Shown in pieces: positions 4,128-19,178 of a DNA stretch of 21,074 bases (position 1 is its first letter; each line of letters opens with the position of its first letter). The position numbers were made by a program, and so were the translations under genes. Origin of the DNA: a virus; IMG/VR virus record IMGVR_UViG_3300044729_000556, positions 1 through 21,074 of that record; one strand, 5' to 3'. The notes beneath the pieces were generated by a model. That model worked only from the letters and a program-made list of their open reading frames with translations, did not search any database and had not been told where the DNA came from.

Positions 4128-4135
4128 TATTTACC

Positions 4136-5438: not shown

Positions 5439-5857
5439 TTACCTTTTCGTCTCTTGTTAATATCCACAACCTTGCCACTTCTAATAGCACGTGCTCTTTC
5501 ACTACGTGCAGAAGCAGAATTAGTTATACCAGCAAATGGTGAATTAGGAACTTTCTTAACAGCAACACCATTCTTTTTCAAATCCTTCATAAACTTATTA
5601 GTGGCTTTTTTATTAACAGCAGCCTTAACACCCTTACCAAGAACCTTTGCAGCCCTACCATAAGGTGCAGTAGCCAAAGCAGCATTCAAAGCCAAATCCC
5701 TACGAACCTTATTCCTTTGAGCAGGAGTTAAAGCATTCCAATTCTTACTAGCAGTCTTAGCAGCCTTAGAAGCATCTTTAGGTTTAACACCCATACCACT
5801 AGACCCAGCATAAAAATATGGTTTCTTACCATCATTCTTCTTAGGTTTCTGTGCCAT
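5435..5857 (-). CDS. 140-residue basic protein, unknown function
   Basis: ATG 5857 overlaps the upstream stop (TAATG), preceded by AAGGGT. The product starts MAQKPKKNDGKKPYFYAGSS and contains LTPAQRNKVRRDLALNAAL, then APYGRAAKVLGKGVKAAVNK, and ends VVDINKRRKGK. Charge is strongly positive over the whole length, with predicted helices in the middle and no membrane segment, Cys pair or enzymatic motif. The last codons AAA GGT AAA also provide the ribosome site of the next gene. I do not recognise a named family. A DNA-binding or internal virion role is possible from composition and neighbours only. Confidence 0.65.
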   Translation of the reverse strand: MAQKPKKNDGKKPYFYAGSSGMGVKPKDASKAAKTASKNWNALTPAQRNKVRRDLALNAALATAPYGRAAKVLGKGVKAAVNKKATNKFMKDLKKNGVAVKKVPNSPFAGITNSASARSERARAIRSGKVVDINKRRKGK

Positions 5858-6465
5858 TATTTTTTACCCTTACTAATAGAATCTTTAGCCATCTTTTTCT
5901 TAATCTCATTGGCTCTTTGTATTAACAATCTACGTTGTTTAATAATAGCCATCTTCTCATCACTAAGTCTTTCAATAGCCTGAGAAATCTTTTCCTTTTG
6001 TTTAGGAGTTGTAGGTTTCTGTTTCAACAAAACAGCCAACTGTCTACTAATTCTATTAAACTCAGATTCTAATTCATCTCTAGTATCACCAAGAGTTTTA
6101 GGTTTATTAGCACTCTTATTTTGTTTCTTACCAGCAACACCTTTAGATTCAATAGTTGATTGAGACCTATTATTAATTCTGCCAGAACGAAGAACCTGTC
6201 CCTCAGAAGTAGTCTTAGCAGTTAACTCATCTTTAAGACCATCAAGTTTTTTCTTTAAAGAAATACCAAAATCTGCAATCTTCTTTTTAACAACAGGGTC
6301 AGTTGTTTCTTTAAACTTTTGACGACCAACAGCAAGACGTTTTTCTAACTCATCAATTTGTTGTTCTAAAGTTTGGGCAGCCTTCTTAACAGCCTTCTTA
6401 ACAACAGGGGCAGCCTTAGCCGCGGCTTTACCTGCCCCACCTACAACAGGTCCAATCATTGACAT
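5857..6465 (-). CDS. 202-residue basic coiled-coil protein, unknown function
   Basis: ATG 6465 is two bases after the upstream TAA, with an AGGT ribosome site in the upstream gene's final codons. Residues 1-30 are Ala/Lys/Val-rich (AGKAAAKAAPVVKKAVKKAA). Residues 31-80 look like a coiled coil (LEQQIDELEKRLAVGRQKFK). A low-complexity basic linker follows (about 85-125), then a second long helix from about 128 (TRDELESEFNRISRQLAVLL) to the end, SISKGKK. No enzyme motif is visible. The helix-linker-helix plan suggests a structural or scaffolding protein. It is the longest member of the basic-gene island. The gene is secure; the role is unknown. Confidence 0.68.
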   Translation of the reverse strand: MSMIGPVVGGAGKAAAKAAPVVKKAVKKAAQTLEQQIDELEKRLAVGRQKFKETTDPVVKKKIADFGISLKKKLDGLKDELTAKTTSEGQVLRSGRINNRSQSTIESKGVAGKKQNKSANKPKTLGDTRDELESEFNRISRQLAVLLKQKPTTPKQKEKISQAIERLSDEKMAIIKQRRLLIQRANEIKKKMAKDSISKGKK

Positions 6466-6467
6466 GA

Positions 6468-6608
6468 TTATTTACCTGGTTTTTTAGGTGTTGCTTTTTC
6501 AATACTTGATGGTTTTGGTGCTATTGGCATACCCATTGGGTTGTCGCCTTTGCTGTTAGCCATTGCATGGTCTACGTTTGGATAGTTGCATCCACATGTT
6601 GAACACAT
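6468..6608 (-). CDS. 46-residue Cys-rich mini-protein (CSTCGC)
   Basis: ATG 6608 follows the upstream TAA by two bases, behind AGAAGAGG located in the upstream gene's last codons. The 46-residue product begins MCSTCGCNYPNVDHAMANSK and ends IEKATPKKPGK. Its CxxCxC cluster plus His14 could bind a metal, and the rest is Pro- and Lys-rich and probably flexible. Both junctions fit the coupled pattern of its neighbours, and without it there would be an unexplained 145-base gap in an otherwise gapless run. A small metal-binding or redox-sensitive role is possible; nothing more specific can be said. Confidence 0.68.
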   Translation of the reverse strand: MCSTCGCNYPNVDHAMANSKGDNPMGMPIAPKPSSIEKATPKKPGK

Positions 6609-6610
6609 AA

Positions 6611-6907
6611 TTATTTACCTCTTCTTGCTTTGTTAATTTTTGTTCTTGTTTTCATTGCTTCAAATGCTTTATCAGATTTACGTGCCATATCTTTATCCCA
6701 ACCAGGCATTCTACTTGATGTTTTTTCCCAGTTTACAAATCTGTTTACACCACTTTGATATTGCTTACCTCTTGCACGTGCTTCACTAGCAACTTTACCT
6801 TTTGCTGGTGTATTTGCTGCTTTAAGTGCACGAGTAACTGCTGCCTTACCATACTTTGCAATCAATCTTGCTGCAGCATCTGCTGCACCTTTTTGTACTT
6901 TAGCCAT
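6611..6907 (-). CDS. 98-residue basic protein, paralogue of the 6910-7203 gene
   Basis: ATG 6907 is two bases after the upstream TAG, with AGAAGAGG as ribosome site. The N-terminus KVQKGAADAAARLIAKYGKA aligns without gaps to KPKKGAADEVAKLVAKYGMK of the upstream gene, so the two are a tandem duplication that diverged. The centre has GVNRFVNWEKTSSRMPGWDK and the end is INKARRGK. The protein is Ala/Lys/Arg-rich with a predicted N-terminal amphipathic helix. The function is unknown; shared composition with its neighbours suggests a joint role. Confidence 0.7.
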   Translation of the reverse strand: MAKVQKGAADAAARLIAKYGKAAVTRALKAANTPAKGKVASEARARGKQYQSGVNRFVNWEKTSSRMPGWDKDMARKSDKAFEAMKTRTKINKARRGK

Positions 6908-6909
6908 TA

Positions 6910-7203
6910 CTATTTACCTCTTCTTTTAATTACTCTAGTAGGACTCAATGTGCCCTTTGTTTCTCTTCTGTTCATTGTTCTTTCAACATATCTATTCCAT
7001 TGGTTACTTTCTTTAACTTTACTTTCAGTAAGTTTTCTACCCTTTTTAGACATAGACTTAGTTGGAACAAGTTTCATACCTGCTGCTTTATTTTCAAAAT
7101 TTCTTCTAGCAAATGCTTCTGCTTCTTTAACTGCTTTCATTCCATACTTAGCAACTAATTTAGCAACTTCATCAGCAGCACCTTTTTTAGGTTTACTTGC
7201 CAC
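6910..7203 (-). CDS. 97-residue basic protein with GAAD...AKYG motif
   Basis: The start is GTG 7203, 6 bases after GGGAG and inside the end of the previous gene (11-base overlap). The product begins ASKPKKGAADEVAKLVAKYG and ends RVIKRRGK. Its first 25 residues are a paralogous match to the downstream 98-residue protein, while the C-terminal halves differ (NQWNRYVERTMNRRE here). It is strongly basic and probably helical. The last codons AAA AGA AGA GGT AAA carry the ribosome site of the next gene. The function is unknown. Confidence 0.7.
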   Translation of the reverse strand: MASKPKKGAADEVAKLVAKYGMKAVKEAEAFARRNFENKAAGMKLVPTKSMSKKGRKLTESKVKESNQWNRYVERTMNRRETKGTLSPTRVIKRRGK

Positions 7204-7372
7204 GACGAACTCCCTTAACTTTCTTCAAATTAGGATTAGCCTTAACAGCCTTCTTACTTGCTTTACGTGCACCAGCAGCAAGAATCGCACCAGCAGACTT
7301 CATACTGACACCTTGCTTCTTAGCAATAGACTTCTGTGCAGCCTTAAAACCCATGCCCTTTTTAGCCTTCAT
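7193..7372 (-). CDS. 59-residue protein with 19 basic and no acidic residues
   Basis: ATG 7372 overlaps the upstream TAA (TAATG). The product is MKAKKGMGFKAAQKSIAKKQ, then GVSMKSAGAILAAGARKASK, then KAVKANPNLKKVKGVRRGK. I count 16 Lys, 3 Arg and no Asp or Glu. The FKAAQKSIAKKQGxSMxxAG pattern resembles small proteins found beside structural genes in other marine phages. The composition is histone-tail-like and fits direct DNA or RNA binding. It is short but backed by precise start and stop coupling to both neighbours. The function is inferred only from charge. Confidence 0.7.
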   Translation of the reverse strand: MKAKKGMGFKAAQKSIAKKQGVSMKSAGAILAAGARKASKKAVKANPNLKKVKGVRRGK

Positions 7373-7500
7373 TATTTTTTCTTACCCATTCTTTTCATCT
7401 TAGACATAGTTTTTTTCTTGCCGTATTCCATCATCATTTCTTTTTTAGATTCTTTTTTTTCGTGCATTTTCTTTGCACCTTTTGATTTATAATTAGACAC
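7372..7500 (-). CDS. 42-residue Lys/Met-rich mini-protein
   Basis: The preferred start is GTG 7500, 8 bases after GGGAG, overlapping the previous stop as GTGTCTAA. ATG 7467 would give a 31-residue form. The product is (M)SNYKSKGAKKMHEKKESKKE, then MMMEYGKKKTMSKMKRMGKK K. It has 16 Lys, 1 Arg and 8 Met in 42 residues. The TAA overlaps the next ATG. Length and low complexity make it uncertain alone. However, it exactly fills the gap between two genes with coupled signals at both ends, and I recall similar Lys/Met-rich mini-proteins in uncultured marine phages. Confidence 0.58.
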   Translation of the reverse strand: MSNYKSKGAKKMHEKKESKKEMMMEYGKKKTMSKMKRMGKKK

Positions 7501-7744
7501 CGTATGCTCTCCCAGTTTTGTTAGATATATCTATTGCTTTGCGAATATCCTTAGTCTTAGTACTATCAGGTTGAATACCCTGAGACCTAGCCTTACGATA
7601 TAACGCAAGTTCATTATCCCACTTCTTAGCAGACATAGTTAATCTACTAGATGCTTCACCAGGATTTAAATCAACTGTAGAAGCCTTGCAACCAAAACAT
7701 CCTTCAACATAATCTGGATGTGTTCTAATTCTGTGTAAACTCAT
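7493..7744 (-). CDS. 83-residue conserved phage protein with GCFGCK motif
   Basis: I chose ATG 7744, preceded by GGGGA, over the upstream ATG 7777, which lacks a ribosome site and would overlap the previous gene by 53 bases. The product begins MSLHRIRTHPDYVEGCFGCK and continues KKWDNELALYRKARSQGIQP and ISNKTGRAYGV. HPDYVEGCFGCK followed by a KKW..EL..Y..AR..GIQP segment is a pattern I recognise from small proteins in many actinobacterial and uncultured phages. The Cys pair (CFGC) with nearby His residues may bind zinc. It overlaps the membrane-anchored gene upstream by 20 bases. The function is unknown. Confidence 0.8.
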   Translation of the reverse strand: MSLHRIRTHPDYVEGCFGCKASTVDLNPGEASSRLTMSAKKWDNELALYRKARSQGIQPDSTKTKDIRKAIDISNKTGRAYGV

Positions 7745-8018
7745 TTGTTGTCCCCAAACGTTTTTCAATTCTGTCAATAGCGTCCTTCATAGAGGAACCA
7801 CCATTATGACTTAACTCACCGTCTAATCTGTTAAGTCTTTCCATAACACCTGGAACGGCATCTCTACCTGGACCACCAGGCTCGCCTTCCCAGTCTCTGC
7901 GAAATTTTTCCAACCATTCCATCATAGAACGAATCTTTCGAACCGATGGTGCAATCACAAAAAATACAGAAGCAAGTGCACTTGCAGTCGCACCTGCTAC
8001 AAGAATGTTGTTTATCAT
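7725..8018 (-). CDS. 97-residue membrane-anchored protein, holin-like candidate
   Basis: ATG 8018 overlaps the upstream TGA as ATGA. Residues 4-24 (ILVAGATASALASVFFVIAP) form one transmembrane helix, followed by positive residues (SVRKIR). The soluble part has WLEKFRRDWEGEPGGPGRDA, VPGVMERLNRLDGELSHNGG and SSMKDAIDRIEKRLG. The ELxxNGGSSxKDxxDRIE segment is typical of a small membrane-protein family in actinobacterial phages. One N-terminal membrane span plus a charged tail fits a holin or other lysis or membrane factor, but there is no endolysin beside it. The membrane anchor is clear; the lysis role is a guess. Confidence 0.72.
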   Translation of the reverse strand: MINNILVAGATASALASVFFVIAPSVRKIRSMMEWLEKFRRDWEGEPGGPGRDAVPGVMERLNRLDGELSHNGGSSMKDAIDRIEKRLGTTNEFTQN

Positions 8019-8272
8019 CCTTCAAAGTTACTTTCAGTAATGCCGATGCCAGCCGCAATGATTGCAGACTTTTGTGCACTGGTAACTTCATACTCGTGTC
8101 CTCCTGCATAATATTCTGTTGCTGCAGTAATTTCATCCTGTGTTGGATATCTTCTTAAAGAATAAATACCAGAAGTTTTTAAAACACTAACACCACGATT
8201 ATGTGTATAACGGTAAAATAAACCAGTACCTGCTGGTCCTTCTTCTACTGTTGGTGGAAAAAACTTTGGCAA
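8015..8272 (-). CDS. 85-residue conserved protein downstream of the capsid terminator, TTG start
   Basis: The start is TTG 8272, placed 6 bases after a strong AGGAG. There is no ATG or GTG nearby in frame, so TTG is the only start that fits. The product begins MPKFFPPTVEEGPAGTGLFY and continues RYPTQDEITAATEYYAGGHE and YEVTSAQKSAIIAAGIG. The FPPT opening, RYPxQDE and GGHEYxVT segments resemble a small protein common in the head-tail region of actinobacterial phages. It probably acts in the virion or head-tail joining. Its ribosome site begins right after the hairpin at 8291-8316, so its transcript must come through that hairpin. Confidence 0.75.
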   Translation of the reverse strand: MPKFFPPTVEEGPAGTGLFYRYTHNRGVSVLKTSGIYSLRRYPTQDEITAATEYYAGGHEYEVTSAQKSAIIAAGIGITESNFEG

Positions 8273-8290
8273 TTTACTCTCCTAATAAGT

Positions 8291-8316
8291 AAAGCCCCCA
8301 GTTTCCCAGGGGCTTT
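8291..8316 (-). terminator. Terminator-like hairpin after the major capsid gene
   Basis: On the minus strand AAAGCCCC pairs with GGGGCTTT (8 base pairs) around a 10-base loop. The stem is followed by TTTACTTATT, a moderately U-rich tail. The stem reads the same on the plus strand, where AAATTTGATTT follows, so it could act in both directions. It lies 19 bases after the capsid stop and 18 bases before the next start. A terminator at this place is classical for phages (T7 has one after gene 10). Confidence 0.82.
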
Positions 8317-8335
8317 AAATTTGATTTGAATCTAA

Positions 8336-9355
8336 TTAAGCACTAATGCTTGATGCTGATTCAATTCTGTATAGTGCTTGTTCGCGGTAACGCTTGAAGC
8401 CTAATACTCCGTACCAACCAATTGGACGCAAACGCATCAATTTGTCAGTAACGTTTCCGATAACTACATGTGGTTCTTCAGCAACTGCTTCTGCAAGTGC
8501 TTGTTGACCAGCAAGTATTGTACGGAATACACGACGGCTTGAAGCACCGTCTGTAGCGTTGTACATACGTGGTGATTCAATGAAGTATGCACCTTCGAAT
8601 GTACCGATTTCACCAGCCCAAATGTTTTCATTTGTTTGGTATTCGTGTGGCAATCTCCATGAGGCTGAGCCTGTTTCTGCACGAAGGTCGTGTGAAACTT
8701 CAGGATGAATTGCACACCAGTACAATGAACCTTTACGAGCAACTGCGTTGTTTGCACGTAGTTTTGCTACTGCAAAACGAATATCTGCTGCAGAGATTGT
8801 ATCTTCTGCTGCAATTTCGTTAGTTGCTGTTGGGTCAGATGCACCAGCAGAACCGTAGCGAACGTTAGTTCCACCACGTAGTTCTGTTTGTACAATTTCA
8901 TCAATTGAGTCAGCCATGTTGTAAGCAACAATGTTTGCAATTGCTGGGTCAACATCTGCCAATGAGAATAATTGCAGTTTACGAGTGGTTAGAACTGCGT
9001 TACCGTATTCGTTAAGAGTTACGGTTACAGCAGTTGGTGTACCAATCGCTACTGAATCTGGGTCAACTTGCTCTGAAAGAGCAGTTGTTGCCTTAGTCAT
9101 ATCATTGTAAATTTGAAATACAATGGATGAACCTGGCATTGATTGACGTGCTGGTCGCTTGTCTGCGACAGAACGCAATAGTGGTTGGCTACGTAGAGCG
9201 AACTCTACTAAACGGTCATATGCTTTTTGTACGAGACCTGCACCATTGGATGGTGTAAAGGTACCGACGTTATCAGCACTTGAATATTGACCGCCACCAA
9301 GACCACCATTAGTATTTGCTGAACCACCTGAGAGGGCGGAATAAGCATTTGGCAT
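8336..9355 (-). CDS. Major capsid protein, N4-gp56-like HK97 fold
   Basis: This 339-residue protein starts at ATG 9355 behind AAGGA. After a Gly/Ser/Asn-rich N-terminal arm (residues 1-40) come AYDRLVEFALRSQPLLRSVA and PGSSIVFQIYND, then a central helical domain (DSIDEIVQTELRGGTNVRYG). Residues 224-264 hold the pattern LRAETGSASWRLPHEY...IWAGEIGTFEGAYFIESPRM. This spine-helix and P-loop-like segment with G.IG...G..F.ESPRM is characteristic of the N4-gp56 family of major capsid proteins. The size fits. It follows the scaffold gene, with only a 16-base gap, and is followed by a terminator, as expected for the most abundant virion protein. It would assemble the icosahedral shell. Confidence 0.92.
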   Translation of the reverse strand: MPNAYSALSGGSANTNGGLGGGQYSSADNVGTFTPSNGAGLVQKAYDRLVEFALRSQPLLRSVADKRPARQSMPGSSIVFQIYNDMTKATTALSEQVDPDSVAIGTPTAVTVTLNEYGNAVLTTRKLQLFSLADVDPAIANIVAYNMADSIDEIVQTELRGGTNVRYGSAGASDPTATNEIAAEDTISAADIRFAVAKLRANNAVARKGSLYWCAIHPEVSHDLRAETGSASWRLPHEYQTNENIWAGEIGTFEGAYFIESPRMYNATDGASSRRVFRTILAGQQALAEAVAEEPHVVIGNVTDKLMRLRPIGWYGVLGFKRYREQALYRIESASSISA

Positions 9356-9371: not shown

Positions 9372-9857
9372 TTAGTAGTTATTTTGTTCTGCACCGAAAA
9401 TCATCGCAGTGATTTCTTCGGCACTTTGTGCTTGGTCGATGCGAAGCATCATGTCATCCACACCGATAGGAGCCTGTCCTGCTGCGGTGATGGTGTCAAT
9501 TTGTCGAAGGGTTGCCAAACTTGGATTCTCAACAGGTTTTTCTTGTTGAATTTCAATACCAAAAACATCAGCATTATCTTTAACCCAGTTTTCAACTGTC
9601 TCAAGATTAACATCAATATCTTGTGGTATAAATTTAGCAATCTTTGGATTAACGCCCATCGACTCCAAAACATACTGAACTGTAGATTCACGTTCAGCAA
9701 CTTTATAACTACCCAGTTGCTGTTCGAGTTCTTTGATTTTCTTTGACTGTTCTTTTTCTAATCTTCTCAATTGCTTGAGTAAATCAGTTTCAGCAGGAAT
9801 ATCATCCTCGTACTCGTCAGTGATATCTGCATCCCAGTTGTTTCTTTTGTTGCTCAT
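9372..9857 (-). CDS. Capsid scaffolding protein
   Basis: I chose ATG 9857 (MSNKRNNWDADITDEYEDD), which has GGGAG 8 bases upstream; the frame is open to ATG 9899, but that start has no ribosome site. The 161-residue product has an acidic N-terminus, then a coiled coil (DLLKQLRRLEKEQSKKIKEL, about residues 25-55). It continues with VQYVLESMGVNPKIAKFIPQ and a helical C-terminus (QAQSAEEITAMIFGAEQ). Acidic N-terminus, coiled coil, 'GVNPKxAKxIP' and position immediately before the capsid gene are the usual marks of scaffolds in actinobacterial phages. It would guide procapsid assembly and then leave. No protease motif is present. Confidence 0.8.
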   Translation of the reverse strand: MSNKRNNWDADITDEYEDDIPAETDLLKQLRRLEKEQSKKIKELEQQLGSYKVAERESTVQYVLESMGVNPKIAKFIPQDIDVNLETVENWVKDNADVFGIEIQQEKPVENPSLATLRQIDTITAAGQAPIGVDDMMLRIDQAQSAEEITAMIFGAEQNNY

Positions 9858-9981
9858 GCAACAGTCTCCCATTCTTTTTGTAGTTGACGTAAGCCTCACA
9901 TCAAAACAGGGGGCGAATTGATATGGCTCTTACTACCAGACTTTTACTCACGCAAGGGCTGGTCGGTCTTGCTGTGGAGGT
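9858..9981. other. Longest intergenic region (124 bp), between LysM protein and scaffold genes
   Basis: This is the longest stretch without a minus-strand gene. By my count the part at about 9907-9979 is near half G+C, noticeably richer than the AT-rich genes around it. It contains a 21-bp imperfect palindrome (9884-9904) and the scaffold ribosome site (GGGAG at 9866-9870). On the plus strand there is a 20-codon ORF (9923-9985), and GGAGG at 9976-9980 precedes another ATG. I see no convincing sigma-70 promoter, tRNA or terminator. As the only real gap before the capsid genes it is the best place for a regulatory element. Confidence 0.5.
9884..9904. promoter_or_regulatory. 21-bp imperfect palindrome upstream of the scaffold gene
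   Basis: The minus strand reads TTGATGTGAG G CTTACGTCAA. The two 10-base arms match at 8 of 10 positions, and in RNA the two mismatches become G-U pairs. It could be an operator for a dimeric repressor or a small RNA hairpin in the leader of the scaffold-capsid message. It ends 26 bases before the scaffold start codon. The symmetry is seen directly; a regulatory role is inferred. Confidence 0.4.
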
Positions 9982-11148
9982 TTAAATGTTCCCTGCAGTT
10001 CCTCTAGTGCTAAGGGAAGTTCTTGAAATTCCTGATTCACCACTAAAGGTACCAATTTCACGTTGAACTAATCTTTTACGACGTTGAGATTCAAGTCCTT
10101 TAAATGTTTCAGCAGTAAGTTCTTCTTCAAGACCTGTGGTTGTTCCTTCATAAATCTGTGCAAACTTACTTAATGGTTGTAGGTTTTCTGCAACAGTACT
10201 GAATCCTTGTCTTGCTGCTTCTCTAGTAATACCAAGGGTTTCTAATTCTTGAGATAACATTGGGTTAGCAGTCAAACCAAATCTTGCAGCCTCAGAAGAA
10301 ATCTCTGCTCTTTGATACTTACGTTGTAATTGAGCAGCCATATCTTCAGGGTTCTTACCTGTTAATAAAGCCTTAGCAAAATCTGTTGTATTAAGAGTTG
10401 GGAAATATGTTTTTAATTGTGTTTTTAGTAACTCATCAGCATTATTAATTTTATCGTAAACATTAGTAATTCTATCTCTTGTTTCTTGAACAGAAACATC
10501 ATTACCAATAAGTTCAGCAAAAGTATTTTGGTTAGCCATGTCACCTAAACCATAGCGTGTTAATACTTCTTGATAATCTTTTTCTAATTGTAAATAAGTA
10601 AATGGGTCTACTACTTGGGCTTTTCTACCAGCAGCAATATCTCCAGCAAAGTTCTTATTGTATTTATCCATACCAGCAAAACGTTGTTTAAATTCTGGTA
10701 GGTCACGCATAGCAACCTGAACACTTTCTTCGGTGTAACCTTGGTTGATTTGAAGGTCAGCCAGTTTATCAACAATACTTTCTTGCATTCCTAATGCTGA
10801 TGCAAGTGATTTGGCTACAGCCCTAGCACTAACCTTTTGACTTTCTACTTGTGCTTGTTGGTCACGTTGAAATTCTAATACCCAATCGGGTACTTGTTCA
10901 GTAGTTGTAGTTGTTGTACCAGCCCCAGCACCAGGTGTACCTGGGGTTGCTTTCAAAGCAGGAACAGTAAAAGTAGTACCACTAAAAAGAACAGTACTAC
11001 CAGCCCGTTGACGTGCTGCTAAAGTTTTATTAGCACTGATTGCTTGATTAACTTGTGCAACAGGGATACCTAAAGACTTAGCAATAGTGGCAGGGGTGTC
11101 ACCTTTTTGAACTGTAACTTTACCAGTTTTTTTATCAACGGTAGCCAT
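9982..11148 (-). CDS. LysM-domain internal virion / structural protein
   Basis: This 388-residue protein starts at ATG 11148, directly after the upstream TAA, behind GGGGGA. Residues 11-63 are a LysM peptidoglycan-binding domain (VTVQKGDTPATIAKSLGIPV ... GTTFTVPAL). A Gly/Thr-rich linker follows (GTPGAGAGTTTTTTEQ, about 67-82), then a long helical region containing GYTEESVQVAMRDLPEFKQR and DPFTYLQLEKDYQEVLTRYG. The C-terminus is Arg/Ser/Thr-rich (ESQRRKRLVQREIGTFSGES). LysM binds glycan strands of the cell wall. Next to a lytic transglycosylase this fits a virion protein that engages peptidoglycan during DNA entry. Placement inside the virion is inferred from gene order; no catalytic domain is seen here. 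Confidence 0.78.
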   Translation of the reverse strand: MATVDKKTGKVTVQKGDTPATIAKSLGIPVAQVNQAISANKTLAARQRAGSTVLFSGTTFTVPALKATPGTPGAGAGTTTTTTEQVPDWVLEFQRDQQAQVESQKVSARAVAKSLASALGMQESIVDKLADLQINQGYTEESVQVAMRDLPEFKQRFAGMDKYNKNFAGDIAAGRKAQVVDPFTYLQLEKDYQEVLTRYGLGDMANQNTFAELIGNDVSVQETRDRITNVYDKINNADELLKTQLKTYFPTLNTTDFAKALLTGKNPEDMAAQLQRKYQRAEISSEAARFGLTANPMLSQELETLGITREAARQGFSTVAENLQPLSKFAQIYEGTTTGLEEELTAETFKGLESQRRKRLVQREIGTFSGESGISRTSLSTRGTAGNI

Positions 11149-12435
11149 TTAGTAATATCCCCCAGTTAATCTAAGTAAAGGTCCTAATAACATTCTTTGT
11201 GCTTTCTGAGTAGAATCAAATCTAGAATCATTCATAGCAAGTTTAATAACTTCAGCCCTAGACATTGCATAAGGTGAACCATCTTTAGGATTAGTTGCTG
11301 TTAAAGCAGATTTCAAAACAGCATCATTATAAAAAATGTCTTCAGCATTAAGTTCTAAAGTATCAGCAATATCATCTCTGAATGGTTTAGCAACATCATC
11401 AAGAGTTGCACCTGATTCAAACCTAGCCTTAAAATTAGGGAACGCTTTAATTGCTTCTTCTCTGAACCTAGCAGTTATATCATCATCTGACATAGCACCA
11501 GTAAATTTATTCTTAACAAGAGTTTTTAATTCTTTACTACCATCAGGCAAAGTGACACCATAAGATGATGCTGTTTTACGAATACCTGTAGCATAAGTAT
11601 TTGCTAAACCTCTGAGATATGATGATTCAAAATCAACAGAGTTAGCAACTATCCTAACAAAATCTTCTTTTTTTAATTTAAACAATGCTGCTTTATTAGC
11701 AAGGTCTGCTATTTGCTTTTCATTATAGTCAGCACCAGCATCAATAAAGGTTTGTCTTATATCGTCTTTATAGTTTTCAATAGTATCTTTAAATGTTGCA
11801 GGGTCAGTCTTTTGTAAAGCAAGAGCATCTCTTGTTTGTTTAACATTTTCTCTATAAAACTTAGAAGTTTGAATAATTGTTGATGCTTGTTCAGGAGATA
11901 TACTTCCGTCATTAAGACCAGCAATAACATAATCTAAACCAGCAACAGAAGCCAAACTTTGAAGGAAAGATAAATCAACAGTGTTCTCGCCACTAGTATC
12001 AAAAAGTGTATCTAAACTTCCTATAACTTTACCTCTACCTTTAAATACTTTAGGTCCTTTAGAGCGTGAAGGAGTACTTGAACCATCCATATATTTTTGA
12101 TATGTTCCTTCAGTGAATGTAGTCCAAGGGCTGTAATCTGTTCCTTCTTTACTGATAGCCCAAGCAGCCTTAGCGTTATACACAGGGTCTTCTAACTTTG
12201 CTGCATCTCTTAATCTATCTACACCAGAATATTTAGAAGGGTCTCTTAAACTACGTATCTGAAACAAACCAACACTGTTGCCCCATTTACTGTTAGCAAG
12301 TGTTTTATCACCTTGTGCATCAGTATTGCCAGCAGATTCAGCGATAGCAATAGCAACCATGGTAGGAATATCTTGTTCAGGTACACCTGCTTGACGTAAT
12401 AATTCTATAATTTGTTGTCTTGTATACTTAGCCAT
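11149..12435 (-). CDS. Virion protein with N-terminal lytic transglycosylase (lysozyme-like) domain
   Basis: This 428-residue protein starts at ATG 12435 in a TAATG junction, with GAGGT upstream. Residues 1-116 look like a soluble lytic transglycosylase domain: AIAIAESAGN with probable catalytic Glu33, GLFQI at 56-60, NAKAAWAIS at 87-95 and PWTTFTEGTYQKY at 103-115. It would cut glycan strands of the host wall. Residues 120-428 are a helical region with no family I can name, containing LRGLANTYATGIRKTASSYG and RAEVIKLAMNDSRFDSTQKA. In T7 the transglycosylase is the N-terminus of the large internal protein gp16; here it is on a separate, shorter protein next to the giant one. No signal peptide is present, so delivery with the virion is more likely than a lysis role. 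Confidence 0.82.
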   Translation of the reverse strand: MAKYTRQQIIELLRQAGVPEQDIPTMVAIAIAESAGNTDAQGDKTLANSKWGNSVGLFQIRSLRDPSKYSGVDRLRDAAKLEDPVYNAKAAWAISKEGTDYSPWTTFTEGTYQKYMDGSSTPSRSKGPKVFKGRGKVIGSLDTLFDTSGENTVDLSFLQSLASVAGLDYVIAGLNDGSISPEQASTIIQTSKFYRENVKQTRDALALQKTDPATFKDTIENYKDDIRQTFIDAGADYNEKQIADLANKAALFKLKKEDFVRIVANSVDFESSYLRGLANTYATGIRKTASSYGVTLPDGSKELKTLVKNKFTGAMSDDDITARFREEAIKAFPNFKARFESGATLDDVAKPFRDDIADTLELNAEDIFYNDAVLKSALTATNPKDGSPYAMSRAEVIKLAMNDSRFDSTQKAQRMLLGPLLRLTGGYY

Positions 12436-13466
12436 TATTTTAACCTCGAAGTAAAGTCACCTAAAGAACCAGCATCTTGAGACATAACAGAATTAAAAGC
12501 ATCACCAAACTGTTGAAGTGCCCAGTAAGGACGTTTACCTTCAGTAGATTCAACAAGTAAATTAGCAATATCTGTTTCGTCAAAACCACCACTAGTAACA
12601 TCTAAAGTTAAACCAGTAACAGGGTCTATGTATTGAGATTCAACTTTTGGTGAAGCAAAAGCATTAGATTTAATTTGTTCTCTTAAATTTAATGCTTCAA
12701 CTTCTGTAGCATCACGATTATAATATGTTTGAAAAACATTATTAATTGCAAGATTTAGTTTAGTATCACTAGGAATGTTAACAGAACCACCTGTTTTTAA
12801 TTCTTGTTGATAGTTAGTTTGTAGAAAATCATCCCAATCTTGAATGTTGCCACCTGCACCTTGAGGGGTTTCAAGTAATTGTCTATTAGAAACACTAACA
12901 TCATTCAACATACTCTCAATGGCTCTTTGAGTCACTGGGTCAATAATATTTTTTGTTCCTGGACGAATTGCGGAAAGGTAACTTTCTGGGTCCATGTAAC
13001 GACCTTGATAAAGTTTTTCTTTCAAATCTAGAATTGATGGTCCACCTGTTTGGCTTTTGTAAGTATATAAACTTGCAAATTCTTCTGCTGCTTGAAGTAA
13101 TGGTTTAACATATAAATAACCCATACCACCAGGAAGAAGAACAGAAGGTTGTGCTGCATCAGTTTCAGGACTCTCTGGTGAAGGAAGCATGAACATAAAA
13201 GAAGCACCGCCACCTTCAAGAGGAGCAACTTTACCTTCTTGAAGAACTCTGCTACTTGGAACATAATCACTAGGGTTTCTACCATATATATTATAGGTTT
13301 TAGCAATCTTTGCTTTAGTAACCTTTGCACCCTGAGATTCTATTTCTTTCATCTGTTCTGGAGTGTATTCTCTATCAGCAAAAGATGCTTTAAGTCCCTC
13401 AGCCAAAAACCTTGTTAAAGGATTTCCTTTATCTTGTGACTCGTCTTTCTTTATATTATCAGCCAT
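12435..13466 (-). CDS. 343-residue putative internal virion protein
   Basis: ATG 13466 follows AAGGT. The product begins MADNIKKDESQDKGNPLTRF and is mainly helical and hydrophilic. It has a short Gly-rich hydrophobic segment (VLLPGGMGYLYVKPLLQAAE, near residue 110) and a middle region with DPESYLSAIRPGTKNIIDPV. It also contains NVFQTYYNRDATEVEALNLR, which resembles spacer sequence in large phage structural proteins. No catalytic motif is visible. It lies between the giant protein and the transglycosylase protein, with start and stop coupling, so it is probably a member of the same ejection complex. That role rests on context only. Confidence 0.62.
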   Translation of the reverse strand: MADNIKKDESQDKGNPLTRFLAEGLKASFADREYTPEQMKEIESQGAKVTKAKIAKTYNIYGRNPSDYVPSSRVLQEGKVAPLEGGGASFMFMLPSPESPETDAAQPSVLLPGGMGYLYVKPLLQAAEEFASLYTYKSQTGGPSILDLKEKLYQGRYMDPESYLSAIRPGTKNIIDPVTQRAIESMLNDVSVSNRQLLETPQGAGGNIQDWDDFLQTNYQQELKTGGSVNIPSDTKLNLAINNVFQTYYNRDATEVEALNLREQIKSNAFASPKVESQYIDPVTGLTLDVTSGGFDETDIANLLVESTEGKRPYWALQQFGDAFNSVMSQDAGSLGDFTSRLK

Positions 13467-13477
13467 TGAAACCTTAT

Positions 13478-16400
13478 CTATAACGTATCTCTAGATTTGA
13501 ACTTGAGCATAGGTTCAAATATAACTTTACTTGCTTGACTTAAAGAACCATCACCAATGGTTAGTTTCCTTAAATCAGTTAATGCATTGTTTCTGTAAAT
13601 CTTTTTATCTCTAACAGCATTAGGGTCATTGATAGAATTTTTGTAATTAAAATAGTTCATTGAATCATCAACTATTTCAGTTGAAGCAATTAACTTATTT
13701 CTAGTCATCTCATCAATAGGAGCAGTTGGGTCATTCAACATTGACTTCAAATCTCTAAGCATTGTTTCTTGTTTAGAAATACCAAAGTCACCTTGTTGTA
13801 AAGCACGGTCTAAGAAAGGATTAGATATTCTTAAAGCCTTTCGATACCGTTCAGTTGAATCTTTAATGTATTGATGTTTCCTGTAATCAGGTTCTTTAGC
13901 AATAGCATCAAAGGCTTTATCTTCAGCATCAAAGTATCTTTGTCTATCAACAGCAACTTGAACTTCGTTAAGGAAAGATTCTAAATCTCTACTCTTAATC
14001 ATCTCTGATGCTTCAAACCAAGCATATGCTGCTGGACTAAAATCACCAACATCTGGTGCAGCCAAGAAAGCAACATCGCCATACTTCTTTATAAAGTCTT
14101 GGTTACGAATAGTCCAGTCTTTAACAGCATCAGTTTTTTGAAATGCTATTTCTTGAACTTTATCGTTACGAGAAACAGTGTAAACAAGTCTGTTAGGATT
14201 TTGTCCGACAAATGCTACTAATGCTTCTTCGTAAAGGTCATCACGTCTAGGGTTTGGTGCCTTGGCAAGGTTCTCATAAAGGTCAAAGAACTCTTGACGG
14301 ATAGCACTAATACCAACTTCTCTTAAATAATCTGGAACATCTCTTGACTCTTTAGTTGACACACCGAAAGGTATTGGTGTCATACCAAGAATGTTTCTTA
14401 AAGCAACAACGTTATGCCCAGTTATTCTAATCTTTTTAATGTATTCATATTTTTCTTCAGCAGTTGCATTAACAGGTAAACCAATACCATTGGCTTGATT
14501 GTATGCAATTGCTTGATGAACAGCAGTTACTTCTTGTTTTTCTTTATCGTCAGAGGAAAGAACTCTCCACCCTCTATCAAGCCAAACAGGTACCATTGCT
14601 CTACGTAAAGTTAAGTTGTCCCCAATTTCACCAAGCATAATGTTATCAACTCTGTCAGCAACAATATCACCATAACTGCCAGGTAGATTGCCAACTATTG
14701 TTTTAAATAACCAAACAGAACCACCAGCAACAGGTCCAGATAATGTTGGCATTGCTGCATCAGGTGACAAAGATGGGTTAGCAAAGTTTAAAGTTAAACT
14801 AAAGTTATTAAATAATGGTTGTTTGTATCCTGCTTCACCGCCACCAAGAACATTCATTACAGGACTTACAGCCTGGAATATGAAGTTATCCATTGGCATA
14901 ATTACATAACGTCCACCTGAAGCATCTTCGTGTATGAAACCACTACCATCTAAACCTAATGAGGCTAAACGCATTCTGTAAAGAACAGGTAATGTGTGTT
15001 TACGTAGACGATAAAAACGTCTCATAAAGTCTTCTGTTGCACGATAGAAACGTCCAACGTTACGAACAGACCAGGCTAATTGGCTTCGAATTGCAGGGTT
15101 ATCAACAAAGTTTAATAGTTCCATTGTTGCTTCTTGGTTAGCAATTTCGGTATAACGTTTCTTTGCTACCTCTTTAGCCCAGAACATAGCAGAATCTGAT
15201 GGGTTTGGTCCTACAGATTTTAAAATTTCTTTAGCAAAGTCTTGTTCTGCTTGACGATATACTTCTCGTTTAGCCAAGTACATTGCAGTGTGTGCAGGTG
15301 CACGATGCCATGCTGTTACTTGTTGGTCAAATCTTTCATAGAACCATTCTTTAACTTTACCGAAAGAAGATATACCATCGGAACCAGCAAAATCAATATT
15401 TGTTTTAAACTGTCCAGTTATTAGGTTATCTTGTGATGCTGCAAAGTATTCTTCGAAATCTAATTCTTTCCATGCCTTATCTAAAGTAACTGGTGTTGGT
15501 GCATTAGGGGCAATCTTTGAATTAATTAAATCCCAAAGTCTTTGATTAAAGGCTTTCTCATAACCACCATTGAACTCGTTCTTTAAATCAGCAAGAACAT
15601 TAACTACTCGTTCTTGTGCAATTTCAGCATCAGTAAAACCTTGTTTACGTTTAACAACTGAATCAGCAGAACCATTAATAAAGGCTCCAACAGTTTTAGG
15701 GTTACTTATAATCCAGTTATCTGTAGAATCTTTCCAAAATCCAATGTTTAACATTGAACTATCTACAGCATCTTGAATATCTTTAGGTGTTTGTAAACCA
15801 TTATGTTTAAAGAATGTTTCGGCTGGTCTCCAATAGACCTTAAACCCTTGTGATTTTGGATTACCAAGTCTGAAATCGTTCATGCCAAAACGTTTTTTGG
15901 TTTCCCACCATTGACTAATTGCACGTTGACGTCGGTCAGCATTTTCAGCAACAGGTTTAAATATGCTGCTAATTGTTCCACCAAGTTCTTCAACTTGCTT
16001 ACTTAAAGTATCTAATGGTGCAATTTCAATACGTGGCATTTCAAATCTGCCACCAAGACCAGAGTTAACAGCAACAGTTGAAGTAACTGATTCAAGAGCA
16101 TGAGGGTTATTTACCAGCAAATCGTGCATATCTTCTCTTTGCTGTGCTGTTACTATCTTAATTTTAGTTTTCTCATCAACTGCACGAATAGATTCGTCAG
16201 CCAAGAACCCTATTTTTTCTACTTGAGATAAATCACGTGCAACTATTTGTGCTCTAACCTCATCAGTTATTGCACCAGAATAGTTTCTAAGTTTGTTTCT
16301 TAACCAGGCTATAGATTTTACTGGTCCACCAAGCATCACACCTGCTGCTGTTGCACCAAAACGACCTACACCTGATAAATAATTATATAATGCTTCCTTT

Positions 16401-18514
16401 GGTGCATAAAGCATGAAGAACATTTGTTCATCGATGGCTGATTTGATACCAAGTTTTGGGGCTAAAGTAAAGAATGTCCAGTTATCGTTTAATCCTTGGA
16501 TTGTTTTACTGTTAGTTATTGCACCAACACGTTTAAGCATTTCATATTTGCTACCACCATGGACTTTAAACAAAGCATCTGAAGTAAATTGTGCAATTTC
16601 TTGCCAAGGTAATTGACCAATAAATGGGGTTTCTTGAAAAGCATGAGGTGCACCAGCAACTACTTGACGAACAGGTAGATTTTCTAGTAATGCTTCTGGT
16701 CCACCAGATAATACTCTTTGTTTAGCACTAACAACACCTGCATCAACAAACTCTTTACCAATAAAACTTTCAACTTGTGAGAAGAAACCAGGTGCGTTAC
16801 CAAATTGTTCGTTAAGAATCCTTTTCATGAACTCTTCGCCACCAGGCATAGCACTTACACCCATGCGATGCATGATAAATGAGTAAAGTCCACGTAATGC
16901 TAGAACTCTATCTCCAGGTGTTTCAAGGTTTCTGAACATTTGAGTATACAATTGTGCTAAAGGTTTACTCATTACTAACCCTGCAGTGCTTTCAACAACA
17001 TCAAGTGTGTTATCAACACCACTGGTTAACGCTTTTGCACCAGTTTCTGTTTCTTCAACTACGTTATTAACAATATTTATTGGTCTGTTACCAGGATGAA
17101 TACGTAGTTTATTCATTAAACCATTAATACCTTTAAGGCTTTCTCTAGCCATTTGTATAGATGGTGCGTTAGCGAATGTTTCTAAGTTCTTTGTTGAACC
17201 AAGTGCTGTTTCTTCACCCATTAGAAGGGTAGTTTGTAGAAAATCTTCAGTAAAAAGTTTTTGTTCTGATGGAGTTAATGCACTTTTAGTTGCTGCTTGC
17301 CAAAAGTTTGATACTTTTTCTGTTATTTCTTTTTTAATTGCACGTGTTTTACTTGCATGTAAAACGTGGTTGCCTATGAATCTTTGAGTTGAGTGTGTTC
17401 TTCCACCAAAGAATAAAGCAAAATCATCCATTTTACTAAAATATTCTCTTGCTGATTCAGCATCAAATACTTTATTGGCTGCTAGTAAAGATAGTGCTTC
17501 ATCGGTATCAAATTGTGTACCTTGAGTTATCTTTAAAATCTCATCTTTAATACTCTTTTGAGCAACAGGGTTACCTTTTGCTTCAGCGTATCTTTGAACT
17601 TTAGGTCCAAGGTTGTCCCATGCTTGGACTACTTCAGGAAATTTTTCAAAAGCAATATCAATACCATCAGCACCAAGTTTGGCTAAGTTCGCTAATTTAG
17701 ATGCTCTTGTTAAACCTAAACGTGCAATTGGTCCTAAACCAAAAGTAACATATGTTAAAGGGTCAATCATTATTTGGTACTGTAAATCTAATACACCAGA
17801 TAATGTGTTAAATGCAAGTTTGTAAAAAGGATTATCTGTTTGTCTATTACCTAAAACGTTTCTTGCTGTGGTACGACCTGGGCTTAGTTGTGCTCTTTTA
17901 TATTGGTCAAGTATTGGTCTGAAAGTATCTGGTTGATTGAAAACTAAATCAACAACGTTTCTTAATTCTTCACTGTTTAAACCTTGATTAGCAATTATTT
18001 CACCAGGTGTTTTACCTTGGGCTAATCCTCTAGCAACAGTACCAACTGTTGTGCCATAAGTTGCGTCTAATGTTTCAATTTGTTTTTGGTCAAACATGTT
18101 GGCACCATCCCAACCGTCTTGCCAAATCTTATTACTCAAATCAGGACCTTGTGCTGCTAATTGTGCTGTACGTCCTGGCATGTTAATAACATCACTGTAT
18201 GTTTTGGCTGCACCAAAAACAGCAGTGATAGGTGATTTAATAAGTTTTATTGCAGCACTGGCTAAACTCCAGTTACTTGGTTGATTATTGTAATCTGTTT
18301 TACCAAATAAACTTTCTAATGCTTTTTGGATTTCTGGGTCTAAAGCATCATAGTTTAATTTAGCAGTACTTTTATCATCCATGTTTAACAGTTCACGATG
18401 CTTATCAAACAAATAAGTGTATGACTCAATACTGTTTTTAGAAGATTTACTTAAGTTTGCTTTATAGGCAGCAGTTGCCAGATTAGGTGCAGTCTTCCAT
18501 ACAATCTGGTCCAT
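13478..18514 (-). CDS. Giant (1678-residue) putative internal virion / DNA ejection protein
   Basis: ATG 18514 overlaps the upstream TAA, with GGAGC upstream. It is by far the largest gene, taking up almost a quarter of the window. The sequence is mostly helical with scattered hydrophobic patches (PITAVFGAAKTYSDVINMPG; YQIMIDPLTYVTFGLGPIAR; GATAAGVMLGGPVKSIAWLR; FIFQAVSPVMNVLGGGEAGY), and highly charged helices near the C-terminus. I find no Walker box, polymerase, protease or muramidase motif. Size, composition and company with LysM and transglycosylase proteins suit a protein of the T7 gp16 type that forms the channel for DNA entry. T7 gp16 is about 1300 residues, so this one is longer and lacks the enzymatic head. 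It is not a tape measure, as no tail-tube genes exist here. The role is inferred. Confidence 0.65.
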   Translation of the reverse strand: MDQIVWKTAPNLATAAYKANLSKSSKNSIESYTYLFDKHRELLNMDDKSTAKLNYDALDPEIQKALESLFGKTDYNNQPSNWSLASAAIKLIKSPITAVFGAAKTYSDVINMPGRTAQLAAQGPDLSNKIWQDGWDGANMFDQKQIETLDATYGTTVGTVARGLAQGKTPGEIIANQGLNSEELRNVVDLVFNQPDTFRPILDQYKRAQLSPGRTTARNVLGNRQTDNPFYKLAFNTLSGVLDLQYQIMIDPLTYVTFGLGPIARLGLTRASKLANLAKLGADGIDIAFEKFPEVVQAWDNLGPKVQRYAEAKGNPVAQKSIKDEILKITQGTQFDTDEALSLLAANKVFDAESAREYFSKMDDFALFFGGRTHSTQRFIGNHVLHASKTRAIKKEITEKVSNFWQAATKSALTPSEQKLFTEDFLQTTLLMGEETALGSTKNLETFANAPSIQMARESLKGINGLMNKLRIHPGNRPINIVNNVVEETETGAKALTSGVDNTLDVVESTAGLVMSKPLAQLYTQMFRNLETPGDRVLALRGLYSFIMHRMGVSAMPGGEEFMKRILNEQFGNAPGFFSQVESFIGKEFVDAGVVSAKQRVLSGGPEALLENLPVRQVVAGAPHAFQETPFIGQLPWQEIAQFTSDALFKVHGGSKYEMLKRVGAITNSKTIQGLNDNWTFFTLAPKLGIKSAIDEQMFFMLYAPKEALYNYLSGVGRFGATAAGVMLGGPVKSIAWLRNKLRNYSGAITDEVRAQIVARDLSQVEKIGFLADESIRAVDEKTKIKIVTAQQREDMHDLLVNNPHALESVTSTVAVNSGLGGRFEMPRIEIAPLDTLSKQVEELGGTISSIFKPVAENADRRQRAISQWWETKKRFGMNDFRLGNPKSQGFKVYWRPAETFFKHNGLQTPKDIQDAVDSSMLNIGFWKDSTDNWIISNPKTVGAFINGSADSVVKRKQGFTDAEIAQERVVNVLADLKNEFNGGYEKAFNQRLWDLINSKIAPNAPTPVTLDKAWKELDFEEYFAASQDNLITGQFKTNIDFAGSDGISSFGKVKEWFYERFDQQVTAWHRAPAHTAMYLAKREVYRQAEQDFAKEILKSVGPNPSDSAMFWAKEVAKKRYTEIANQEATMELLNFVDNPAIRSQLAWSVRNVGRFYRATEDFMRRFYRLRKHTLPVLYRMRLASLGLDGSGFIHEDASGGRYVIMPMDNFIFQAVSPVMNVLGGGEAGYKQPLFNNFSLTLNFANPSLSPDAAMPTLSGPVAGGSVWLFKTIVGNLPGSYGDIVADRVDNIMLGEIGDNLTLRRAMVPVWLDRGWRVLSSDDKEKQEVTAVHQAIAYNQANGIGLPVNATAEEKYEYIKKIRITGHNVVALRNILGMTPIPFGVSTKESRDVPDYLREVGISAIRQEFFDLYENLAKAPNPRRDDLYEEALVAFVGQNPNRLVYTVSRNDKVQEIAFQKTDAVKDWTIRNQDFIKKYGDVAFLAAPDVGDFSPAAYAWFEASEMIKSRDLESFLNEVQVAVDRQRYFDAEDKAFDAIAKEPDYRKHQYIKDSTERYRKALRISNPFLDRALQQGDFGISKQETMLRDLKSMLNDPTAPIDEMTRNKLIASTEIVDDSMNYFNYKNSINDPNAVRDKKIYRNNALTDLRKLTIGDGSLSQASKVIFEPMLKFKSRDTL

Positions 18515-18921
18515 TATGCTCCGATAATTGTGTTGTATGCTGCTGCTGTTTCACCTGAAGGGTCAAACTGCATAACCTCTGCTAGTACTTGTTCAATTGT
18601 TGGATTTTGTGGTGTAGGTAAATCTAATGAACTAAAGTCTGTACCAAGACCAACTCTTGAACCTTGTGTTGTTGGTTCTGATGGTCGTTCAGTCATCGCT
18701 GTTAAAGGAGTAAGTTTACCCATCATTGCTTTTTGAACATCAGCAGCAGTTGGTATTCTTGCAGCAGTTGGTTTACCAGCCATATCTGCACCTTGTTGTT
18801 GTTGCAACAATGCTTGACCTTCACCGTAAGAACCACCAGACATATAACGTACTGGTTGTTTGGAAGTGTTCATGTCAGTTCGTCTAGCGAACTTACTTGG
18901 TCCTGATACTTGCTCAGCCAT
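18514..18921 (-). CDS. 135-residue conserved protein downstream of portal
   Basis: ATG 18921 overlaps the upstream TAA, behind GAGGAT. The product is rich in Gly, Gln, Pro and Thr and likely disordered. It has YMSGGSYGEGQALLQQQQGA, then MTERPSEPTTQGSRVGLGTD, and a helical C-terminus (PTIEQVLAEVMQFDPSGETA). The SGGxYGxxxAL..QQ and RPxEP segments resemble small proteins that follow the portal in actinobacterial phages. It may be a portal-associated or internal virion protein. There is no enzymatic motif, and its role is unknown. Confidence 0.72.
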   Translation of the reverse strand: MAEQVSGPSKFARRTDMNTSKQPVRYMSGGSYGEGQALLQQQQGADMAGKPTAARIPTAADVQKAMMGKLTPLTAMTERPSEPTTQGSRVGLGTDFSSLDLPTPQNPTIEQVLAEVMQFDPSGETAAAYNTIIGA

Positions 18922-19178
18922 TAATCCTCATCTTCATCAAGTGTGTTAAATTTTTCATCTAACAAACGCCCTGCTTCTGTAATCATTCCCTGTAATTTCC
19001 AGTTAGGAGATTTGTTGTCATCTAGTACATGTAAAAAGTATTTGCCATTGGAATCAATCATTTCAACAATGGTTATTGCACCTGTTAGCATTCCACCCAT
19101 CGGATGCAAGTCTTGAACAAAATCGTTTAACGCATCCTGAAACTTTTTCACGTAATCAGGTTGTGTACGTTTTGTCAT
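18921..19178 (-). CDS. 85-residue protein, unknown function
   Basis: ATG 19178 is one base after the portal stop, and AGGAT in the portal's last codons is the ribosome site. The product begins MTKRTQPDYVKKFQDALNDF and contains GAITIVEMIDSNGKYFLHVL, a likely beta hairpin, then WKLQGMITEAGRLLDEKFNT and an acidic end (LDEDED). A beta hairpin followed by 'W...GM...A..L' is seen in small actinophage proteins near the portal, but I cannot name a family. The acidic tail codons GAT GAG GAT supply the next ribosome site. Confidence 0.7.
   Translation of the reverse strand: MTKRTQPDYVKKFQDALNDFVQDLHPMGGMLTGAITIVEMIDSNGKYFLHVLDDNKSPNWKLQGMITEAGRLLDEKFNTLDEDED

Follow-up and report, generated by a model that had tools for sequence, protein, structure and literature searches.

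What is the role of a gene that takes 23.9% of a virus record and whose product has no recognisable domain? The record is IMG/VR virus record IMGVR_UViG_3300044729_000556, a linear record of 21 kb; the window is the whole stretch analysed, positions 1 to 21,074. The gene, P0001, encodes a protein of 1678 residues, here called the giant. An earlier sequence-only reading of the window had recorded it correctly as a single gene occupying almost a quarter of the DNA, with no strand stated (it lies on the minus strand), and had taken the product to be a probable core ejection protein. We likewise consider it likely that the giant serves a short-tailed phage, probably one of an actinobacterium, as its core ejection (pilot) protein. 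It is the gene's position, a short tail, hydrolase-bearing partner proteins, a block exchange between phages and effector-type inserts in relatives that, taken together, lead us to this reading.

The giant and its family

The proteins encoded by the relative loci L001 and L003 (L-numbers are labels of the loci compared with the window) are 97% and 91% identical to the giant, and its frame is unbroken against both. Substitutions at codon positions 1/2/3 number 32/18/50 and 116/65/266, respectively. Since they are concentrated at position 3 and the frame is unbroken, the giant open reading frame (ORF) is a selected gene. Domain searches agree with the sequence-only reading that nothing recognisable is present, as follows. 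PHROGs gave no match at E up to 1 and NCBIfam none at E up to 0.01, the single Pfam match had E 0.066, under the cut-off, and the single match among PDB sequences had E 4.9. Profiles of the two halves of the giant, searched against PDB, reached a best E of 0.27.

That reading had also described the giant as helical, with several hydrophobic patches that might become membrane-inserted. The patches did not survive analysis: the highest 19-residue Kyte–Doolittle mean is 1.32, with no 19-residue segment above 1.6, and 97.6% of 500 shuffled sequences attain the same maximum. The scale is not decisive, as T7 gp14 also peaks at 1.31; values above 1.6 occur somewhere in 9 of 25 giants of sister group 1. 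The helical character stands in part. AlphaFold2 models of residues 1–900 and 781–1678, made from 30-row alignments with L011 and L002 excluded, are mostly helical, with a mean predicted local distance difference test score of only 56 and 62, too weak for use. With these low-confidence models, Foldseek found no PDB match at E 0.001 for either half, and VIA gave best Z values of 8.4 over 79 residues and of 3.4, the range of common helical arrangements. A viral structure library, searched with the C-terminal half only, returned three proteins at E ≤0.001, none of them with a named function. We make no claim about the fold of the giant.

A portal profile found at least 590 relatives in IMG/VR, of which the best 80 loci were kept. 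In 36 loci the sequence continues for at least 7.5 kb beyond the portal match, and every one of these has a complete ORF of 1514–1986 residues downstream of the portal; the remaining 44 contigs end too soon for a judgement. At least 589 relatives, 80 of them kept, were found in IMG/VR with the giant profile of the window's branch. The giants are an unannotated superfamily with a conserved place downstream of the portal.

Once two antisense ORFs, one tail ORF and one duplicate locus had been dropped and one start had been moved to the annotated start, 95 giants or pieces of giants remained, which blastp divided into groups of 40, 33, 9, 6, 6 and 1. An iterative hmmsearch ended after one round with 40 members of the 95 proteins, and the groups were then joined by profile–profile comparison, with only members longer than 1450 residues aligned where a group had any. 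The window's branch matched the Beephvirinae branch with a probability of 99.2% (E 1.1e-19, 1077 columns), and of 98.7% (E 3.3e-16) with a larger alignment. A combined alignment of three sister groups, drawn from the Beephvirinae group, from the other group of 6 and, with a few members only, from the group of 33 and its later additions, gave a probability of 99.5% (E 3.2e-23), and 555 columns were kept after realignment. Twenty column-shuffled controls and one reversed control, made from the Beephvirinae alignment, gave at most 0.3%. The Beephvirinae group in turn gave 100% with both the group of 33 (E 1.9e-47) and the other group of 6 (E 6.7e-59), 98.5% with the group of 9 (E 2e-15) and 98.6% with the single protein (E 8.8e-16). 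By profile comparison, then, the window giant is placed in a giant family of actinobacterial podoviruses that includes Beephvirinae gp9. Four of five giants scanned (Immanuel3 gp9, L017, L083 and L121, not L086) match phrog_10618, of unknown function; the window giant does not match it at E up to 1.

The order portal–giant–partners–scaffold–capsid is common to the window, four Beephvirinae records (Immanuel3, FlowerPower, Kumquat and Stella) and the Planktophila phages. The Beephvirinae giants (gp9 in the first three, gp10 in Stella) have 1635–1648 residues and are annotated 'hypothetical protein', as is that of Abafar, a member of the same subfamily. They resemble the window giant in operon place, in length and in profile homology over most of that length, and the portals and capsids of the records listed are 43–45% and 55–57% identical to those of the window. 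Pairwise, however, tblastn at E 0.01 gives no match between gp9 and the window giant, and the best small-set blastp E is 0.046. PMC11536984 describes Abafar as a podovirus whose head measures 60 nm and whose tail measures 16 nm. Planktophila phage E7 (OX376640; locus L011) has a 1764-residue giant that is in the window's own branch and is 27% identical over residues 1064–1605 (E 5e-45). Planktophila phage F5 (OX376641; locus L017) has the same gene order as the window and a giant of 1711 residues in the sister branch.

The proteins encoded downstream of the giant may bear on entry. The sequence-only reading had placed LysM and transglycosylase proteins next to it; both are downstream, an SLT_3 head on the 428-residue protein and a weak LysM match on the 388-residue protein (E 7.3e-4, 19.9 bits, just under the Pfam cut-off of 20.9), and the gene directly adjoining the giant encodes instead a 343-residue protein of no known family. 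Immanuel3 differs from the window in having two hydrolase-headed partners where the window has one: gp11 with an NlpC/P60 head (E 3.6e-30) and gp12 with an SLT head (E 2.5e-5). In the C-terminal region, gp11 and gp12 are 44% identical to each other, and each is 24–25% identical to the window SLT_3 protein. Immanuel3 gp13, a 530-residue protein of L011 and the window 388-residue protein are homologous. Wall-cutting heads thus seem to have been exchanged on one body, and such variation suits an entry apparatus. In a Pfam scan, the 442-residue partner of L011 and the 364-residue partner of L017 showed no recognised hydrolase head, and the two partner families have no profile similarity to T7 gp14–16 or N4 gp51–52. 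Taken as DNA segments, L013:12251-14865 and window 11149-12435 carry NlpC/P60, SLT and SLT_3 heads on one kind of C-terminal region.

Enzyme-like inserts and exchange of the giant module

In the F5 branch, 66 distinct giants longer than 1450 residues were aligned (from 108 ORFs, 82 of them distinct). All 10 insertions longer than 100 residues, which measure 161–223 residues, follow the same residue, L017 821; other insertions of at least 40 residues are limited to pieces of 41–53 residues near the N-terminus in seven giants. Five giants (L039, L044, L046, L165 and L174) carry an ADP-ribosyltransferase (ART) at this point, with PF03496 at E 6.8e-15 to 1.6e-16 in the four that were scanned; the inserts of L046 and L044 share 95.8% identity. 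The L044 insert also matches a solved ADP-ribosyltransferase (E 3.4e-4). In alignment, the ART inserts keep FRG, SST and ExE, the elements expected of this class. The inserts of five other giants (L040, L042, L043, L169 and L170) are ParB-like, with phrog_1033 at E 3.3e-7 to 6.3e-5 in four of four scanned and the L170 insert identical to that of L169. This call is weak in Pfam (E 0.021–0.034, under the cut-off, for L042 and L043; none for L040 and L169) and in PDB (ParB at E 0.18; no match for L042 or L169 alone), and we base it on the phrog_1033 matches together with a conserved GNHR motif.

The two kinds of insert occur in otherwise near-identical giants. L043 (5607-11270; ParB-like) and L044 (193-6009; ART) are 98.2% identical outside the insert, and L039 (ART) and L040 (ParB-like) are 96.0% identical; on both sides of the insert, the DNA identities are 96% and 94%, respectively. 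L038, which has no insert, is 95.5% identical to L044. It is tempting to propose that the giants are a delivery platform, that is, a constant ejection scaffold with a docking point for unrelated enzyme cassettes (ART, ParB-like nuclease, with GNAT elsewhere) that are swapped between near-identical phages and that, on entering the actinobacterial host along with the DNA, disarm it at once; we hold this broader proposal to be plausible, with the odds falling a little short of even. That the giant is an effector carrier in some lineages is probable.

No cargo or enzyme domain is recognised in the window giant by Pfam, PHROGs or NCBIfam. The absence of an enzymatic head, as stated in the sequence-only reading, is correct for this copy and does not extend to the family, since some relatives hold an internal ART, ParB-like or GNAT-like insertion. 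The window's branch alignment comprises 91 distinct giants, and four further contigs (L209, L254, L266 and L276) are without a complete giant ORF. The branch has an insertion point of its own, empty in the window; the insert of L022 at E 2.7e-4 matches the GNAT family PF00583 (21.6 bits, cut-off 20.7). An insertion of 75–77 residues in L054 and L065, seen in one alignment, is broken up in that of the 91 giants. The segment of the window giant approximately equivalent to the cargo point of the F5 branch was placed with low confidence, and the equivalence was lost on realignment. Two candidate cargoes were set aside: a peptidase/endolysin match in L083 (phrog_25820 E 5e-4, phrog_20590 E 0.0026), because the region scans as a coiled coil (APG6_N E 3.1e-4), and a colicin-DNase match in L069 (E 0.045), which was not used. 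Two near relatives of the window, L002 (4659-9692) and L004 (4288-8990; the L004 contig is the L209 contig), have a split giant ORF, through either sequencing error or real disruption.

The giant also moves as part of a larger unit. Phages E7 and F5 were both isolated on 'Ca. Planktophila' strain LanE-43, and the paper describing them (PMC10202952) notes an 8-kb island of hypothetical proteins for which the other phage has no homologues. Our DNA comparison, which covered 33.8 kb of E7, gave 96.3% identity over E7 2833-8372, the 5.5 kb before the block, and 97.0–97.7% over E7 16922-33823, the 16.9 kb after it; in the first 2.8 kb of E7, F5 matches only in pieces, at 72–95%. No blastn match lies between positions 8372 and 16922 of E7, which leaves an exchanged block of 8.55 kb in E7 and 8.27 kb in F5. 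The block starts inside the small gene before the giant, the E7 counterpart of the window 135-residue gene, and ends at the end of the second gene after the giant; its content is the giant and its two downstream partners. Outside the block, plus-strand ORFs of E7 of at least 75 residues with an F5 partner are 92–100% identical, except for one overlapping ORF of doubtful reality at 61%. The products of the last block gene are 26% identical over 281 residues, and the E7 and F5 giants are in two branches of one family, so that we prefer to see in the island one module in two diverged versions. Where the published description has an island of hypothetical proteins, we see the exchange of a giant and its partners between two deep branches. 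Among other contigs, too, portals that share at least 95% identity occur with giants from one branch or the other (15 closest pairs listed).

The ejection reading and its rivals

From these data we infer virion location, ejection, channel formation and insert function, and the proposed course is as follows. Together with the products of the genes that immediately follow, the giant would be incorporated around the portal during procapsid assembly. On adsorption, it would leave the head through the portal ahead of the DNA. The partners, with their SLT and NlpC/P60 hydrolase heads and a possible LysM, would open the peptidoglycan, and the giant would form or line the path of the DNA across the envelope. 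In some relatives, an enzyme-like domain (ART, ParB-like or GNAT-like) at a fixed point would enter the cell with the giant.

The T7 ejectosome, gp16 with gp14 and gp15, resembles the proposed system in having a large helical protein in a short-tailed phage and a peptidoglycan-cutting activity in the gene group. The window giant is longer than gp16, as the sequence-only reading had said (1678 and 1318 residues), and differs from it in that the transglycosylase head, N-terminal in gp16, has its window equivalent, SLT_3, on a separate protein. In hhalign comparisons, the window's group reached at most 0.2% against T7 gp14, gp15 and gp16. The giants probably serve one class of podoviruses as core ejection proteins with no detectable kinship to those of T7 or N4, and the suggestion of an uncharacterised ejectosome type is upheld in the sense that no profile link to T7 gp14–16 or N4 gp50–52 was found. 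Phage proteins that have ART or ParB-like domains and are packaged or injected have been documented as polyvalent proteins (Iyer et al. 2017, PMC5512222). Some relatives of the window giant are like these in having an ART, ParB-like or GNAT-like domain within one long virion-operon protein; in the giant family, however, only some members carry cargo, and they carry it at one point of a constant scaffold; the window copy has neither a recognised cargo nor HExxH. Two cyanobacterial podoviruses of the Saffermanviridae offer a further likeness: Pf-WMP4 gp32, annotated 'ParB-like partition nuclease', and its counterpart in Pbo-yong3 are ART-containing proteins of 1459 and 1471 residues beside annotated tail or peptidase/hydrolase genes. 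Their ARTs are similar to the giant inserts (tblastn E 8e-6 and 7e-5), but their profile similarity to the giant scaffold is at most 0.6%, a parallel and not a detectable relative.

Three other roles were weighed. The giant could be a tail or head–tail structural protein, for instance at the tail tip, lining the tube or in an appendage, and remain on the particle instead of being ejected. In FlowerPower, Kumquat and Stella, two genes that follow the giant bear the annotation 'minor tail protein', a weak Pfam match to the T4 tape measure (E 0.0026) occurs in one of 30 family members, and the mostly helical models are compatible with such a part. We nevertheless regard this role as improbable: the 16-nm tail of the relative Abafar is far too short for a 1650-residue tape measure, the giant gene lies between the portal and the scaffold and capsid genes, separate from the adaptor and tail-type genes, which follow the capsid gene, and ART and ParB-like inserts are hard to reconcile with a part that remains outside. 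The same position between portal and scaffold would fit an internal head protein for assembly or packaging, kept in the virion or lost at maturation and without a role in DNA entry, as would the lack of a domain or searched motif in the window copy. This seems to us less probable again, since the giant is exchanged as a block with partners whose window and Immanuel3 counterparts bear peptidoglycan-hydrolase heads, which points to the entry step, as do the effector-type inserts. A virion RNA polymerase or other large virion enzyme, as in N4, comes to mind because N4, whose gp56 family includes the window capsid, ejects a giant polymerase. We give this very little credence: hhalign found at most 0.9% for any of the five giant groups against N4 gp50. 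A scan for HExxH, RxxxKx6-7YG and [TD]xxGR, which we take to be the polymerase motifs of N4 gp50, found these simple motifs in gp50 and not in the window giant.

Several observations nevertheless weigh against the ejection reading or limit its reach. The best value of any of the five giant groups against T7 gp14–16 and N4 gp50–52 was 7.0%, and the operon place is unlike that of T7: the giant gene precedes those for scaffold and capsid, whereas T7 genes 14–16 precede the tail-fibre gene. Section 4 of PMC8954989 states that ejection proteins are absent from phi29-like phages of Gram-positive hosts; it also names Mycobacteria as hosts of phages with such proteins. Compared directly, the window's branch and the cargo-bearing branch (the group of 33) give inconsistent values (3.8%, 85.5% and, with larger alignments, 1.0%), and the kinship of the two therefore rests on the Beephvirinae branch as an intermediate. 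When the window's branch is split in two, the window's part matches the Beephvirinae at 96.8% and E7's part at only 53.6%; against the cargo branch, E7's sub-branch gives 0.6% and the rest 1.9%, and against the combined groups 96.4% and 99.2%. Insertions of at least 60 residues occur in only five distant members among the 91 aligned giants of the window's branch, so that the cargo argument reaches the window only through the family. Finally, for the two ART inserts scanned, those of L044 and L174, the best PHROG is 'ADP-ribosyltransferase exoenzyme toxin' (E 2.7e-15 and 2.3e-16), and Alt-like RNA-polymerase ADP-ribosyltransferase PHROGs rank behind (best E 9.4e-8 and 3.8e-6). On this ranking a secreted toxin fits as well as an injected effector.

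On balance, the core ejection role proposed by the sequence-only reading is the best-supported one, if only indirectly, by gene position, the 16-nm-tailed relative, the exchange module and the ART and ParB-like domains in sister giants; its hydrophobic-patch argument is not supported. The literature searches brought up no description of DNA-ejection machinery for podoviruses of Streptomyces or of the abundant freshwater 'Ca. Nanopelagicales', none of the giant family as ejection proteins and none of alternative inserts at one point. The giant and its neighbours offer a concrete candidate for such machinery with cultured relatives, Immanuel3 and Abafar on Streptomyces and E7 and F5 on 'Ca. Planktophila'; if the reading is true, podoviruses of Streptomyces and Nanopelagicales would possess an ejection system in this family. 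The E7/F5 exchange turns a published island into a testable idea, that phages swap their entry apparatus. One insertion point that takes alternative enzyme-like domains would amount to a protein-delivery design found in nature, and it bears on the purpose of freshwater phage ARTs, on which Ghai et al. are said to have reported in 2017. PMC6802176, which deals with 24 such phages, reads ARTs of this kind as 'Trojan horse' toxins against protist predators. If the delivery-platform proposal is true, at least some of them would instead act on the bacterium as effectors carried in the virion, in the manner of T4 Alt.

Gene neighbourhood

All assignable genes of the window are on the minus strand, in the order portal, 85-residue protein, 135-residue protein, giant, 343-, 428- and 388-residue proteins, probable scaffold, capsid, small proteins, adaptor and further genes. 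The 343-residue protein has no significant similarity to Immanuel3 gp10. The portal and the adaptor each matched 31 phage records, namely 29 Streptomyces phages and the two Planktophila phages; the capsid matched 98, and the best among the matches listed are the two Planktophila phages and Streptomyces phages. Judging from these named relatives, the host is probably an actinobacterium. Two scans of genome contigs with portal queries confirmed no relative.

Features of the window and of related loci (aa, amino acid residues; coordinates are those of the window unless a locus is named)
Feature	Coordinates	Strand	Basis or remark
Giant protein, 1678 aa (P0001)	13478..18514	-	single uninterrupted ORF, ATG start
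Giant residues 1046-1666, block still aligned to sister branches after realignment (L017 residues 1091-1699)	13517..15379	-	hhalign
Giant residues 1151-1169, densest invariant run of the window's branch (R...RFYRAxEDFxRRxYR)	15008..15064	-	invariant alignment columns
Giant residues 622-623, insertion point of the window's branch, empty in the window	16646..16651	-	five relatives with 104-134 extra residues
Giant residues about 760-770, approximate equivalent of the cargo point (L017 after residue 821), empty in the window; low confidence	16205..16237	-	Viterbi path only
Portal protein, 572 aa	19180..20898	-	phrog_104 E 1.4e-21; 43-53% identity to Streptomyces and Planktophila phage portals
85-aa protein between portal and giant	18921..19178	-	27% identical to L011 84-aa protein, E 7e-4, small-set blastp
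135-aa protein directly upstream of giant	18514..18921	-	phrog_8200 E 9.8e-15; kin of Immanuel3 gp7 and L011 147-aa protein
343-aa protein of no known family, directly downstream of giant	12435..13466	-	same place as Immanuel3 gp10
428-aa protein, SLT_3 lysozyme-like head	11149..12435	-	SLT_3 E 1.8e-28; C-terminal region common to Immanuel3 gp11 and gp12
388-aa protein, weak LysM	9982..11148	-	phrog_8424 E 1e-54; homologue of Immanuel3 gp13, L011 530 aa and L017 482 aa
Probable scaffolding protein, 175 aa as called	9372..9899	-	DUF4355 E 0.001 (under Pfam cut-off), phrog_648 E 5.7e-4, phrog_7813 E 8.9e-31 (function unknown)
Major capsid protein, N4-gp56 family	8336..9355	-	TIGR04387 E 2.8e-34; phrog_1357 E 1.1e-86; 55-57% identity to Beephvirinae-type records listed
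Head-tail adaptor, 297 aa	4136..5029	-	SU10_adaptor E 4.1e-12; phrog_7578 E 7.1e-112 (function unknown)
Exchanged block	L011:8373-16921 vs L017 (reverse complement) 22069-30335		E7 vs F5
Large ART proteins of cyanobacterial podoviruses	L282:2140-6519 (Pf-WMP4 gp32), L283:2170-6585

In Planktophila-type phages, the gap between portal and giant holds a 178-residue proteasome-type protein (L011:7500-8036; PF00227 E 1.2e-5, partial match), which could process virion proteins; the window has no proteasome-type gene there. At 6611-7203 on the minus strand, the window encodes two adjacent small basic proteins of 97–98 residues that are alike (K-G-A-A-D...KYG) and are possibly tandem duplicates.

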